From positions 1 to 48,740 of the IMG/VR virus record IMGVR_UViG_3300020000_000024: DNA of 48,740 bases. The stretch is one strand, 5' to 3'. The notes under the pieces are model-generated. The model worked only from the letters and a program-made list of their open reading frames with translations. It was not told the origin of the DNA and ran no database searches. A program made the position numbers and the translations under genes. Below, piece after piece: positions 4,259 to 19,307 of the stretch (positions within the stretch are counted from its first letter, which is position 1; each line of letters starts with the position of its first letter). The stretch is from a virus.

Positions 4259-4623
4259 TCTTTTTCTAATTGTTTTAGTTTACTAACTAATGCAAGAAAT
4301 GTATCCATTTCCATTATAGCTAGCTTTGTTGTTTTCCTTTTGTGTAAAACAACTGTAGGCAAACTTAATCTTTCAGGATATTCTTTAGTTAAAGCTTGTT
4401 GGACTTCATCTAACACTTCCTTATAATTAATATGTATTACATTCTTTGCTTGAATATTATATGGAATAAAATCCAAATCTACCTTACATGAATCTAATAA
4501 TCTACTTGTTTGTCTAGTTGTTTTACACCTAGGATAACCTAAATCTCTAAATATTTGAGCAAGATCTCTCTCCCATTGAAATCCTTTCGCACGATTTGTC
4601 TTACCCTTATTCTTTTTTGCCAT
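4255..4623 (-). CDS. PD-(D/E)XK-type nuclease, Holliday-junction-resolvase-like
   Basis: 122 aa. Begins with a basic segment and the pattern RAKGFQWERDLAQIFRDLGYPR, where the Glu aligns with the alpha-1 Glu of small PD-(D/E)XK nucleases; then SCKVDLDFIPYNIQAKN gives a D...(Q)xK core, with QAK as the motif III variant. Such small phage enzymes cut branched DNA or act as resolvases before packaging. Position beside the flap exonuclease fits DNA processing. Family assignment is by motif; whether the substrate is Holliday junctions is inference. Confidence 0.75.
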   Translation of the reverse strand: MAKKNKGKTNRAKGFQWERDLAQIFRDLGYPRCKTTRQTSRLLDSCKVDLDFIPYNIQAKNVIHINYKEVLDEVQQALTKEYPERLSLPTVVLHKRKTTKLAIMEMDTFLALVSKLKQLEKE

Positions 4624-9507: not shown

Positions 9508-10569
9508 TTAATTTTCGATTACTACTTCAGAATTTTGTGCAATTTGTTTGTTACTTCTTTCATAAACTGTATCCAATAGTTTACGCATACATTTAATTGT
9601 AAAGCTATTATTAGACAGATACTCAGGATGCATTTGGATTGCAAGGCATTTAGTTTTTGGATAATAAGCTATTTCAACATCACAAAGAGGATTCATATCT
9701 TCATTATCTCCTCCTAAGTGCATTTTACTCCTATCAGGATTTGATGCAATGATTTGATATTCATCTTGAGGAAGATTAAATGGATATTGCATTTGATGAT
9801 GTGTACTTGAAGCATCAATTTTCTGTCCTTTCTTTACAAGATCTTCAATATCTTCATGCAATTCAATTGAATGACTTCCAGCATGTTGCATATGCTGCAC
9901 TAATTTACCACCATTCATAACACAAAGAAACTGCGAACCTCTGCAGATTCCAAGTATTTGCTTACCTAAAGATAGAGCTTTTTTATAAATTTCAATTTCT
10001 CTACTATCTCGTGCAATATTTGAACTGGTATGATAATGTTCTTTCTCTCCATATAAACTTGGATCAACATCCTCTCCACCAGTAAATAATACAAGATCTG
10101 CATCTTCAATATTTTTTACAATTTGACCTTCCATCCATCTTGCATATCCAGTTTGAGAATCTGCTATAAATATTTTCCTTTTTGCTACTTTATCTTTTTC
10201 CATATCTCTGTTTAACCAATCATTTGTTTCAATTTTTACTCCACCTCTTGCTTCAATATCACCTTTTTTCATTAACCAAATAATAACATTTCGATTAACA
10301 CCATTTATTTTATGTGAAAATGACCAACTATAATATCCAGCATTCATTTCCATTTCATCAATATCAATAAAATCCTCATCTGAAACAGATAAGAAATCTC
10401 CTGTTGCAGGAAGATTATTACTATTTGTAAAATCTGCTACAGGATATGGTCCAAGATCAAATAATTGAATTCCATATAATATTGCTGTAGCTTCATGTTG
10501 TAATGATTTAAATTTATTAAAGTTTGGTTCTCCTGGTCTTAATGTACCATATGCAAATATGTATTTCAT
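9508..10569 (-). CDS. Gamma-glutamylcyclotransferase-like / class I glutamine amidotransferase-like fusion, 353 aa
   Basis: Residues 1-115 are a GGCT/AIG2-like domain (FAYGTLRPGE at 5-14; acidic DIDEMEMNAGYY near 69-80 fits its catalytic region). Residues 130-330 are a class I GATase / gamma-glutamyl hydrolase-like domain (peptidase C26): LFTGGEDVDPSLYG, the nucleophile elbow GICRGSQ with Cys209, and MHPEY with His314 and Glu316. Both domains act on gamma-glutamyl bonds, so the fusion probably edits or recycles gamma-glutamyl amides made by the ligases around it. The next gene upstream overlaps its ATG by 4 nt. I know of the domains as neighbours in phage clusters; whether this exact fusion has been reported I cannot check. 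Confidence 0.85.
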   Translation of the reverse strand: MKYIFAYGTLRPGEPNFNKFKSLQHEATAILYGIQLFDLGPYPVADFTNSNNLPATGDFLSVSDEDFIDIDEMEMNAGYYSWSFSHKINGVNRNVIIWLMKKGDIEARGGVKIETNDWLNRDMEKDKVAKRKIFIADSQTGYARWMEGQIVKNIEDADLVLFTGGEDVDPSLYGEKEHYHTSSNIARDSREIEIYKKALSLGKQILGICRGSQFLCVMNGGKLVQHMQHAGSHSIELHEDIEDLVKKGQKIDASSTHHQMQYPFNLPQDEYQIIASNPDRSKMHLGGDNEDMNPLCDVEIAYYPKTKCLAIQMHPEYLSNNSFTIKCMRKLLDTVYERSNKQIAQNSEVVIEN

Positions 10570-16636: not shown

Positions 16637-17154
16637 GTTGTTAAAAATTCTTGTGTTTCTTTTCCTTTAAATTCTAATAACTGTTTAGTATTTTTAATTG
16701 CACCTTTAGCAGGCATTACTGTATTACTATGATCACCCGTATAACCATTCATTCTACTACAGGCTAGTATATTAGCTAGCATGAGCTTCTCTAATGGTTC
16801 CTCCATAGTTTCATCTTTTTCAATAAATTCAAAAAATAAATCTATATCAAAATAAGCAGGTTCATTCCATAGATACCTAATAAAGTTTAATAATATTAAA
16901 GATTGATCATATGTACTTAGTAATTTTATTTTAATATATTCAACATCATTAACTATAACTAACTCACAAGGAGTTATCTTATTAATAAGATCAACTAAGA
17001 TAGGAATATATTTTTTGGTTCTTGATTCAGTAAATCTACTGATATAAATAGTTTCATTACTCCAATATCTCATTCCTGCCCAACAAGCATCATTAGGATT
17101 TGGTTGTATAACTCCATTTAACATTTTATAAAAATAACATCTATAACCTCTCAT
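16633..17154 (-). CDS. Hypothetical protein, 173 aa
   Basis: ATG start sharing one base with the helicase stop. Contains a Trp/Cys segment (NPNDACWAGMRYWSNETIYISRF, in part) and helical C-terminal half. No motif of a known family. Sits directly behind the helicase, so it may be a replication accessory protein; that is inference. Confidence 0.7.
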   Translation of the reverse strand: MRGYRCYFYKMLNGVIQPNPNDACWAGMRYWSNETIYISRFTESRTKKYIPILVDLINKITPCELVIVNDVEYIKIKLLSTYDQSLILLNFIRYLWNEPAYFDIDLFFEFIEKDETMEEPLEKLMLANILACSRMNGYTGDHSNTVMPAKGAIKNTKQLLEFKGKETQEFLTT

Positions 17155-18084
17155 TAATTCTTCTTTATATAATTTTCGTAATTAATTTCATTAGCTCTTG
17201 GTAATTCTTCAAATAGATTGGTTCTACCATCAAAATATAGAGGAAGATATGTATTAGCTAAACCATAATGTCTATCCTTTAGGAATATTAACATTCTGAA
17301 TCTATCTCTTAATACATCTATTTTATAATCTCTATAAGTTTTAATATTATATCTAGCTGGAGCAAATAATCCAAGTATTAAATCTGCCTCTCTTTGTGTT
17401 TCTTTATTATTAGCAAGTCCATCTAGGCTAGGTTCAAGTTTCTGCTCAATACTTTGTCCTTGATAAAACTCTTGTTTCTCTTTCTCTGCACTCTGTTGTT
17501 GTACATTGATTACTATACACTTGTATCTTTTACAGAATCCTTTAAGACAATATTCTTTAGAATAATGACCTATTGCTTCATGTAAAGTTTGTTTAATTCC
17601 ATCAACCTTTTCAGCTTGTAATAGAGATATATGATCTGTAACTACAAATACATATAAATTAGGATCTTTATACTCATAATCTATAGGTATTTCCTTACCA
17701 TTATCAGTAGCTGTAACTGTAATTGCATGACCAATTTCTGGATTTTCAAAATAATCTCTTACTTTCTTATAAATTCCAAAAGGATTAGATACATGATCTA
17801 TCACTTCTATGAATCCCTCTAATTGCTCAATAGAGGCTCTACAATCATTTATCTTAGCTAATAGACTATCAGATACTGTATATCTACCCAAGCTCTTTAA
17901 ATCAGCATTAGAAAGAGAAATATTGTATTTTTCATAAAGTGCTGTAGATAAGAGACTTAACCAAAACTCTTCTTTAGACTCTTCCAAAGCAAAATAAAAA
18001 ACTTTAACTCGTGCTCTGGGATTTTGTTTAATAAATTCAGATAAGCTATTAATAATGAGGAATTTAGTAAGCTTTGTTTTACCA
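17154..18084 (-). CDS. Replicative SF4 (DnaB-like) helicase, exon 2
   Basis: Continues the helicase after the group I intron. It begins in mid-codon (T of GTT) and reads GKTKLTKFLIINSLSEF, completing the P-loop started in exon 1, then ALEESKEEFW (catalytic Glu region of SF4 helicases), VFVVTDHISLL (Walker B strand, with TDH), CIVINVQQQS and a READLILGL segment with a later Arg-rich stretch (RDRFRMLIFLKDRHY) that could hold the arginine finger. An internal ATG at 18101 lies in intron sequence, so the frame upstream of GKT is not authentic protein. Spliced product is 364 aa, DNA unwinding at the fork. Confidence 0.88.
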
Positions 18085-18283
18085 CATAATGTTAACTGCA
18101 ATTTTATATATAGTTGCAGATCAGACTATCTCATGTTATTATTTCTAATAACCCGATATTTCTTAGGTGGATTTTGTTTTCTTCCATATCCACTAGTCGT
18201 TGAACCTTTCACAATACTTTTATAGAATTCTTGTGCTTGGTAACTGATTGTCCTTTTTAGGATATTCCAGTTTTAAATCGGTT

Positions 18284-18514
18284 TTAACGGGGCAATGTAA
18301 AACTAAACTTATTTTTATAGATTCCTTTATTATTTTTTCTTTTTAAACATTTCCAGATTAAATTTTCTCTAAAATTGAAAAATTTATTACATTCTTTTAA
18401 ACTATTAAATAAATATTCTTTATTAGTTTTTAAGTCTTTAACAATAACTTTTTTATTTTTAGATTTTTTTAATTTTGGTTTTTTTGTTATATCCTGTACT
18501 TCTTTTTTATCTTC
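18284..18514 (-). pseudogene. In-frame NUMOD-like extension after the GIY-YIG stop codon
   Basis: Immediately after the TAA of the intron endonuclease, the same frame stays open for 77 codons. It encodes a Lys-rich linker (KKPKLKKSKNKKVIV) then KDLKTNKEYLFNSLKECNKF and LIWKCLKRKN, which resembles the NUMOD1-type repeat (x-D-xxTN-x-EY-x-FxSLxEAxxxL) used by homing endonucleases to bind DNA. This looks like a lost C-terminal DNA-binding repeat; loss by a stop mutation or readthrough cannot be separated. It runs into the 5' side of the intron core. Confidence 0.6.
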
Positions 18515-19060
18515 TTAATATTTAAATTGATAACCATTCGCTTGTTTATATATTCCGCTTAATACTCTATGTATTGAAGAGGGATCTAGTTTTAAATATT
18601 TAGCTGCTTGTCTTATATAGTCAAATGAATATTGGTAATCACCATTTTCAAGATATACATCAATTTTTCTTGTTCTTGTAAATTTTATAGTACCATTTTT
18701 ATAACCTAATTTTAAAGTTTGTGAAACCTTTTTTCTACTTTCAGTAGAAAGAGTATTTCTTAATACTTCTTTAGTTAAATTATATTCTGGTTTTAGTATG
18801 TTAATCCAATATTGTTCTCTTTGTAATAGTTCTTCTTTTTCACACTCTTCTAATATAAAACAGGTAAAATTTTCAATTTTGTATTTATTTATAGCACTTC
18901 TTAAATAAATATTTTGATGTCTTCCTATTCTAAAATCAGATAAATGTTTATTTAATCTATTATAAATATTAATAGAACTTCCAATATAGATTTTTCTATT
19001 TTTTCTATTATAAATACAATAAATTCCAATTTTTTTCGAGTAATTTCGCGATATTTTCAT
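18515..19060 (-). CDS. GIY-YIG homing endonuclease, intron-encoded, 181 aa
   Basis: N-terminal GIY-YIG domain: KIGIYCIYNRKNRKIYIGSS (about 10-29) with GIY-to-YIG spacing, conserved Arg (YNRLNKH), and a catalytic Glu region (LLQREQYWINILKPEYN). The C-terminus has a NUMOD1-like DNA-binding repeat (VYLENGDYQYSFDYIRQAAKYL...SIHRVL). It would cleave intronless helicase alleles near the Walker A codons and so spread the intron. A TATATTTG box (19065-19072) lies 4 nt upstream and may drive it separately from the host gene. An in-frame TAA removes a second repeat (see 18284-18514). Confidence 0.92.
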   Translation of the reverse strand: MKISRNYSKKIGIYCIYNRKNRKIYIGSSINIYNRLNKHLSDFRIGRHQNIYLRSAINKYKIENFTCFILEECEKEELLQREQYWINILKPEYNLTKEVLRNTLSTESRKKVSQTLKLGYKNGTIKFTRTRKIDVYLENGDYQYSFDYIRQAAKYLKLDPSSIHRVLSGIYKQANGYQFKY

Positions 19061-19064
19061 ATCA

Positions 19065-19072
19065 CAAATATA
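19065..19072 (-). promoter_or_regulatory. Possible -7 box of an intron-internal promoter
   Basis: TATATTTG on the minus strand fits the Bacteroidetes TAnnTTTG box just ahead of the GIY-YIG start. A TTTTG upstream (19099-19095) is 22 nt away, wider than the 18-nt spacing of the two better promoters in this window, so this is weaker. Confidence 0.35.
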
Positions 19073-19118
19073 TAATATTTTTTACTACTTTCGACAAAAC
19101 CTTGTAAATTTAGTTAAA

Positions 19119-19137
19119 TTTACTAGGCTAATTGTTT
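19119..19137 (-). repeat. 19-nt repeat, intron copy
   Basis: AAACAATTAGCCTAGTAAA, intron nucleotides 7-25, is repeated exactly on the plus strand at 46891-46909. In the intron it covers the P1 loop/IGS side and the start of the P2-like hairpin. Confidence 0.8.
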
Positions 19138-19143
19138 GAAGCC

Positions 19144-19307
19144 ACCCCGCTCGAAGCAGTAAAAATATTATACATTCCTTTCTCCCATCCAGGAAATCTA
19201 TCATTTAATCTATTAAATGGAGAGGGAATACTAACTACCTCATTATTTTCTTTCTTCTCTTTATTCTTTCTTATTTTTTCATAAAGCTTATCAAATGCTT
19301 TTTCCAC
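19144..19307 (-). CDS. Replicative SF4 (DnaB-like) helicase, exon 1
   Basis: Reads VEKAFDKLYEKIRKNKEK... then IPSPFNRLNDRFPGWEKGMYNIFTASSGV, the canonical lead-in to the P-loop of DnaB/Gp4-like helicases (strand, then A/S-S-G-V-G-K-T). The only in-frame start is GTG at 19307; an in-frame TAA lies three codons further up. Exon 1 supplies 54 codons plus two bases. Without splicing the frame would end after VASNN within the intron. The N-terminal domain is very short, so this helicase lacks the long primase-binding N-domain of DnaB. Confidence 0.85.

Follow-up and report, generated by a model that had tools for sequence, protein, structure and literature searches.

We argue that the replicative helicase gene of a crAss-like phage carries a mobile group I intron of subgroup IA, and we hold this reading with high confidence. 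The window, meaning the whole stretch of DNA analyzed, is a 48740-base virus record with a terminase nearest to those of Crassvirales (best match cr118_1, 46.5%). Most of the named phages that carry a related helicase are crAss-like. A Sak4-like gene lies downstream of the helicase on the same strand, and the order is the same in phi14:2, cr112_1 and cr111_1. An insert of 1059 nt divides the DnaB/SF4 helicase gene on the minus strand (19143-18085), within Walker A. The parts of the locus are:

19144 to 19307, minus strand: helicase exon 1, with a GTG start at 19307 and its end at U19144 in the Walker A codon GT^T
18085 to 19143, minus strand: the insert, read as a group I intron of 1059 nt from its core and P1, last base G18085, absent at 77 of the 80 best helicase loci
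18515 to 19060, minus strand: GIY-YIG homing endonuclease gene, 181 aa, from Pfam and PHROG matches, in loop L1
17154 to 18084, minus strand: helicase exon 2, beginning T GGT AAA ACA (GKT), from the joined translation and its DnaB_C match

The sequence-only reading had described two helicase halves separated by 1059 nt with a GIY-YIG gene, split inside the Walker A codons, and this arrangement holds. The junction it proposed is exact to the base. Joining T19144 to T18084 makes the codon GTT and a frame of 365 codons (364 aa and a stop) that reads ...FTASSGVGKTKLT... In Pfam the joined protein hits DnaB_C (38.8 bits, cut-off 27, 9e-10), which bears out its identity as an SF4 helicase of the DnaB type. 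The downstream ORF by itself (18101-17154, 315 aa, as a gene caller would report it) matches no DnaB_C model. Its first residues, MQLTLC, are intron sequence, so the start of a truncated helicase there is indeed false. Exon 1 was defined from its ORF and the joined translation, an HMM of intact helicases and tblastn against relatives. An alignment with intronless helicases had been proposed as a check. The joined protein aligns with uninterrupted relatives of up to 58% identity without a break at residue 55. Among the best 80 of 319 helicase loci the site is intact in 77, interrupted at the same place in 1 (L042) and cut by a contig end in 2, a set that is biased toward intact genes because the loci were ranked by match. 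An intact second helicase elsewhere had been named as the sign that would speak against a split gene. The 48.7 kb record, possibly a fragment of a larger genome, yielded no further DnaB_C gene.

The insert has the conserved core of a group I intron and sequences that match both exons:

18116 to 18286, minus strand: catalytic core P3-P8 with P7.1, from model R1
18193 to 18206, minus strand: GGTTCAACGACTAG, J6/7 and the 5' strand of P7 (R element), from a 14-mer match
18124 to 18128, minus strand: TAGTC, 3' strand of P7, from the sequence and the R1 alignment
18096 to 18119, minus strand: P9-like hairpin CTGCAA...TTGCAG, from the sequence and fold
18286 to 18293, minus strand: internal guide sequence GCCCCGTT, which pairs with the exon-1 end AGCGGGGU
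18297 to 18303, minus strand: GTTTTAC, just upstream of the guide, P10 (7 bp) with exon-2 GTAAAAC at 18082-18076, read from the sequence

A group I covariance search had been suggested, and it succeeded only with a model of related introns. RF00028 from Rfam gave no match at E<=10 in either the 1.5 kb region or the whole window, and so none at its gathering score of 50 bits. The related model, R1, was built from 13 cores of similar topology out of 32 extracted from loci that hold the 14-mer GGTTCAACGACTAG; the window and L042 were left out of its alignment. The R1 consensus contains P3, P4, P5, P6, P6a and P7.1, with changes on both sides in 19 of 29 pairs, and all five pairs of P3 are kept in 13 of 13 sequences. 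R1 matches the window over its full length (18286-18116) at 91.8 bits, E 3.1e-21, and the runner-up in the window has 8.2 bits. It must be noted that the 14-mer, also present in the window, picked all R1 members, which by our own estimate inflates the score by at most about 28 bits. L042 was retrieved via its helicase rather than the 14-mer and scores 103.9 bits. RF00028 does recognize relatives: AR9 has 86.7 bits, L240 72.0 and cr112_1 50.1, and L042 has 46.4 (E 2.7e-10), slightly below the gathering score of 50. Other Rfam matches in the region are sub-threshold chance families, and the MIR6274 match among them really outlines an exon-intron hairpin described below. A search for the exact core pattern with a fixed P3' was too strict and gave zero matches.

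The P7 strands and R-like segment recognized in the sequence-only reading are GGTTCAACGACTAG and TAGTC, and R1 aligns them as such. In the window GGTTCAACGACTAG is the sole match with up to 2 mismatches. It occurs exactly in at least 120 IMG/VR stretches and in Staphylococcus Twortvirinae loci, the latter found through blastn matches of the core. Those blastn matches include the annotated introns of phage K/A5W polA and of the AR9 RNA polymerase. A helix between P7 and P3' marks subgroup IA. The window has an extra helix there of the P7.1/P7.2 kind, GTGGAT...ATCCAC, so we place its intron in IA, resembling IA2. P7.1 and P7.2 are named as class features in passages of PMC3984707.

Both ends of the insert are those of a group I intron, as had been claimed: U19144 ends exon 1 and pairs as U.G with the guide, and G18085 ends the intron. 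P1 has 8 bp with this U.G at the splice site. It is the best G-anchored pairing, at an offset of 850 and immediately before P3. When the 60-nt segment was shuffled 20000 times, a G-anchored pairing reached 8 bp in 101 of the shuffles. One rival G-anchored pairing of 7 bp is present in the window at offset 43. A P1 adjoining the 5' splice site was sought by hand and gave weak pairings only; it was replaced by the guide 3' of the ORF. Since the guide is 3' of the GIY-YIG gene, that gene lies within loop L1. Exon and guide co-vary among relatives. The pair is GGGAU/GUCCC in L042, where P1 has 5 bp only and other 5-bp pairings are present. Among related introns in a MoxR-like gene, six loci have CUGGGCU/GGUCCAG, two have CAGGGCU/GGUCCUG, and the offset is always 789 (8 of the 9 loci tested; exon 1 of L350 was not found). 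Competing pairings exist in the relatives too, and some are equally long or longer. We favor this guide because it adjoins P3, has the G at its start and keeps a constant offset.

From these parts one can propose a mechanism. The pre-mRNA would fold so that the guide GCCCCGUU, which lies 850 nt downstream on the far side of the endonuclease gene, pairs with exon AGCGGGGU, and this P1 together with P10 would hold both exons at the catalytic core. Guanosine would attack after U19144, and ligation of the exons at G18085/U18084 would bring the GVGKT codons back together. The probable target of the GIY-YIG protein is intronless P-loop DNA, cut around GGGNT^TGGTAAAAC, after which repair would copy the intron into the cut site.

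The endonuclease ORF has the GIY-YIG catalytic domain (PF01541, 2e-13, 50.8 bits, cut-off 22.6). It also matches the NUMOD-like PF22083 (2.6e-7) and PHROG 314 (7e-24). The domain is intact and its residues are conserved in relatives at the same site. Two further features lie on its upstream side:

19065 to 19097, minus strand: promoter-like TTG-N22-TATATTTG, directly upstream of the endonuclease gene (weak evidence)
19067 to 19176, minus strand: exon-intron hairpin at the 5' splice site, with inverted-repeat arms at 19161-19176 and 19067-19082

The window has 9 matches to TTG-N19-22-TAnnTTTG, which we take to be a Bacteroidetes promoter consensus, and each of its two GIY-YIG genes has one of these directly upstream. 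The motif stands upstream of 5 of the 7 endonuclease genes checked, and judging by this motif the intron endonuclease may have its own promoter. The second GIY-YIG gene of the window (25431-24727, minus strand) is 39% identical to that of the intron over part of its length. It lies just upstream of a DNA polymerase I-like ORF and has the promoter-like motif directly upstream. Elsewhere on the minus strand there is a tmRNA-like RNA at 27595-27182 (RF00023, E 2e-15; 46.6 bits, just under the cut-off of 47), directly before a tRNA-Leu at 27179-27093. ARAGORN does not call this RNA, and related DNA is absent from the phage set searched. A frame inside it reads ...VSEPELAY, followed in the sequence by AA and a stop; the tags of known tmRNAs are typically shorter than this frame.

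The hairpin is far more stable than expected (z -6.25, 0 of 200 shuffles) and extends nearly to the endonuclease start. L042 has a shorter exon-intron hairpin (z -3.26). No such hairpin was found in the two MoxR loci folded (z -0.68 and +1.50) or in cr112_1 (z -0.25), and the frurule fold (z -2.22) comes mostly from other helices. The T4 td intron with I-TevI also combines a group I ribozyme with a GIY-YIG enzyme, and according to passages of PMC3073962 the ribosome-binding site of the td enzyme is held in an RNA hairpin. By analogy, the window's hairpin may keep unspliced helicase mRNA from making the enzyme. The two systems differ in layout: the td gene is in the loop of P6 (same passages) whereas the window's is in L1, and the window's hairpin pairs exon 1 with the intron.

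The helicase site is occupied repeatedly. The junction is as in the window, at base 2 of the codon that precedes the GK glycine, in L042, cr112_1, PhiCrAssBcn14 and cr111_1. The interruption in L042 belongs to the window's own intron family; the other three have the same codon position, a different ribozyme family and a related enzyme. The junction is GGT^GGN in frurule, L231 and L232, and GGT^AAR in phi14:2, L233 and L237. The second ribozyme family, which is without the helix between P7 and P3', is found in cr112_1, Bcn14, cr111_1, frurule, L231, L232 and L237 (four of these seven were aligned). R1 gives 13-15 bits on its cores in cr112_1, Bcn14 (first intron) and frurule; cr111_1 was not listed. 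Carriers include Steigviridae crAss-like phages, and in cr112_1, PhiCrAssBcn14, cr111_1 and Kolpuevirus frurule the introns are annotated only as a homing endonuclease and helicase pieces. Like the window these four have a GIY-YIG gene between the helicase halves, with 41-45% identity to the window's enzyme. The site is GT^N GGN exactly as in the window in the first three and one base further by codon in frurule, but the ribozyme is of the other family.

A tree of 38 GIY-YIG proteins has a supported clade (96/89) of cr112_1, cr111_1, frurule and L231 together with L236 and L239, which have cores of the window's type behind their enzyme genes (68.6 and 81.8 bits). The window's own enzyme is not firmly placed. 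This clade crosses ribozyme types, so from the sequences enzymes and ribozymes seem to have swapped partners.

Several related loci have further peculiarities. The helicase of PhiCrAssBcn14 is split again near its 3' end (L016, 4644-5770) by an insert with a core of 58.3 bits with R1 and an ORF annotated as hypothetical. In Cellulophaga phage phi14:2 (L014, 1388-4000) the helicase is split at GGT^AAA by 2.6 kb with several ORFs; a P7'-like GAGACAGTCC lies mid-insert, yet the R1 score is only 12.4 bits. In L227, L228, L229, L234, L235 and L238, close endonuclease relatives are found upstream of an SF2-helicase-like gene. The P-loop of that gene is intact there (SMGVGKT or SVGTGKT), and these enzymes are possibly free-standing beside their target.

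The window's intron family also occurs in an unrelated gene. In L240, L241, L242, L244, L246 and L251 it splits a MoxR-like AAA+ gene, with the break at GDAGL^GKT or GEAGL^GKT. Relative to the P-loop, this is the base position that is interrupted in the helicase. The joined protein matches a family of phage ATPases (PHROG 1297, 1.3e-27) and, in named phages, MoxR-like ATPases; its AAA matches in Pfam are all sub-threshold. A scan for the shared 3' end (TAACANNATG, TGGNAARAC) found 57 IMG/VR stretches. P7' TAGTC directly upstream and an R1 core are present in 24 of the 57, of which 23 are in the MoxR-like gene and 1 is in the helicase of the L042 contig. Many of the 23 contigs are near-identical, so these are not 23 independent events. 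The remaining 33 have no such core, and their frames past the site are mostly short.

Searching by enzyme leads to the same two genes. The endonuclease alone as query found 2 loci and an alignment query found 492, of which the best 80 were kept. Among these best 80, 12 have both exons identified at a P-loop: the six MoxR-like loci above and the helicase loci L226, L231, L232, L233, L237 and L239. L226 is the L042 contig, and the insert of L239 is longer with more than one core. One exon only was found in L230, L236, L243 and L298, and the rest of the best 80 are elsewhere or not resolved. The MoxR-intron enzyme has its top score, among the named-phage matches listed, with the enzyme of the frurule helicase intron (33%, 4e-25). 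A search of the window's own record for AAA_5 (PF07728) found no such gene.

IA cores in general were sampled by the 14-mer. Three of 55 have GK[S/T] starting the next frame, and by our reading of these candidates 1 of the 55 is at a P-loop, again in a MoxR-like gene. L140 was not counted since by eye its peptide is unlike a P-loop protein, nor was L123, which by eye and translation looks like a PolA-type gene. This PolA-type polymerase of L123 is apparently interrupted on the reverse strand near 10488, at KAVSFG / YGKSAIGL, by an IA intron that has another ORF. Two MoxR-like loci have additional elements. In L319 (3235-4279) the gene has a second GIY-YIG intron just after the Walker B-like LILDDYTRAD (R1 141.6 bits). 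In L240 a tRNA at 4422-4550 (33.7 bits, cut-off 29, Rfam) is apparently nested between P7 and P3' of the intron; ARAGORN finds no tRNA in the MoxR-intron loci, L240 included.

We read the insert as a group I intron because its junction restores the frame and recovers DnaB_C, intact relatives are without it, and R1 scores it well. The same-site intron of L042, the blastn core matches, the co-change of exon and guide and the intact GIY-YIG domain are further reasons. One can imagine a degenerate insertion that has lost its activity and left the helicase of this contig a pseudogene. The silence of RF00028 would fit this, but none of P1, P3, P4-P6, P7 and P10 is broken, the frames of the endonuclease and of both exons are open, and no DnaB-type helicase other than the split gene was found in the record. 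We consider such a loss very improbable. It is harder still to believe that the endonuclease gene is free-standing and the gap is skipped by the ribosome in translation or is misassembled. We found no point in favor of this, a group I core with a matched guide spans the gap, and the same arrangement is present in independently sequenced phages.

How the intron came to this site is a separate question. Introns could land widely and persist in conserved codons, so that the P-loops of the helicase and the MoxR-like gene were reached independently and no endonuclease that recognizes P-loop DNA need be posited. Group I introns are known to prefer conserved sites, as inteins do, with retention as one proposed reason (passages of PMC2814812), and P-loops are a classic intein site (passages of PMC5050341). 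The weak resolution of the endonuclease tree around the window also agrees with independent arrival. However, in two unrelated genes the insertion is at one and the same base position, and the introns there belong to one ribozyme family, share their 3' end and have related enzymes. The only one of 55 sampled IA cores at a P-loop is itself a MoxR-like member. Independent arrival is a serious contender to which we give a little less than an even chance. Intron lineages may instead target P-loop DNA, with the ATP-binding motif itself as the landing site. We lean slightly toward the view that these GIY-YIG introns are P-loop specialists whose endonucleases recognize Walker A-encoding DNA.

Known systems match parts of this picture. 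The introns of phage K and A5W polA (I-KsaIII; Staphylococcus Twortvirinae) and of the Bacillus phage AR9 RNA polymerase have the core sequence and helices of the window in different host genes. The AR9 endonuclease gene is upstream of the core as in the window, whereas that of A5W follows P7 and the window's is in L1. P-loop inteins, for example TerL1-a and TerL1-b of mycobacteriophages, are mobile, have a homing endonuclease and sit in Walker A codons (passages of PMC5050341), but they splice protein while the window's element would splice RNA. Our literature search, mostly of titles and abstracts, found no description of this helicase intron or of a P-loop intron shared by MoxR-like and helicase genes. 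Since the preference for conserved sites and the P-loop inteins are both known, the possible specialization on P-loops across genes is the part worth testing.

For annotation, the finding means that gene calls here and in several named crAss-like phages wrongly break the replicative helicase into fragments with false starts. If the introns are P-loop specialists, one lineage moves between non-orthologous ATPase genes, a DnaB-type helicase and a MoxR-like AAA+ protein, adjusting its guide to each exon it meets, and related endonucleases are carried at one site by different ribozymes. These loci form a natural series suited to testing how homing introns reach new genes: a single intron lineage occupies two unrelated genes and its guide varies along with the exon, and two ribozyme families share one site and have related enzymes. 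A group I counterpart of the P-loop inteins would extend this convergence to RNA splicing.
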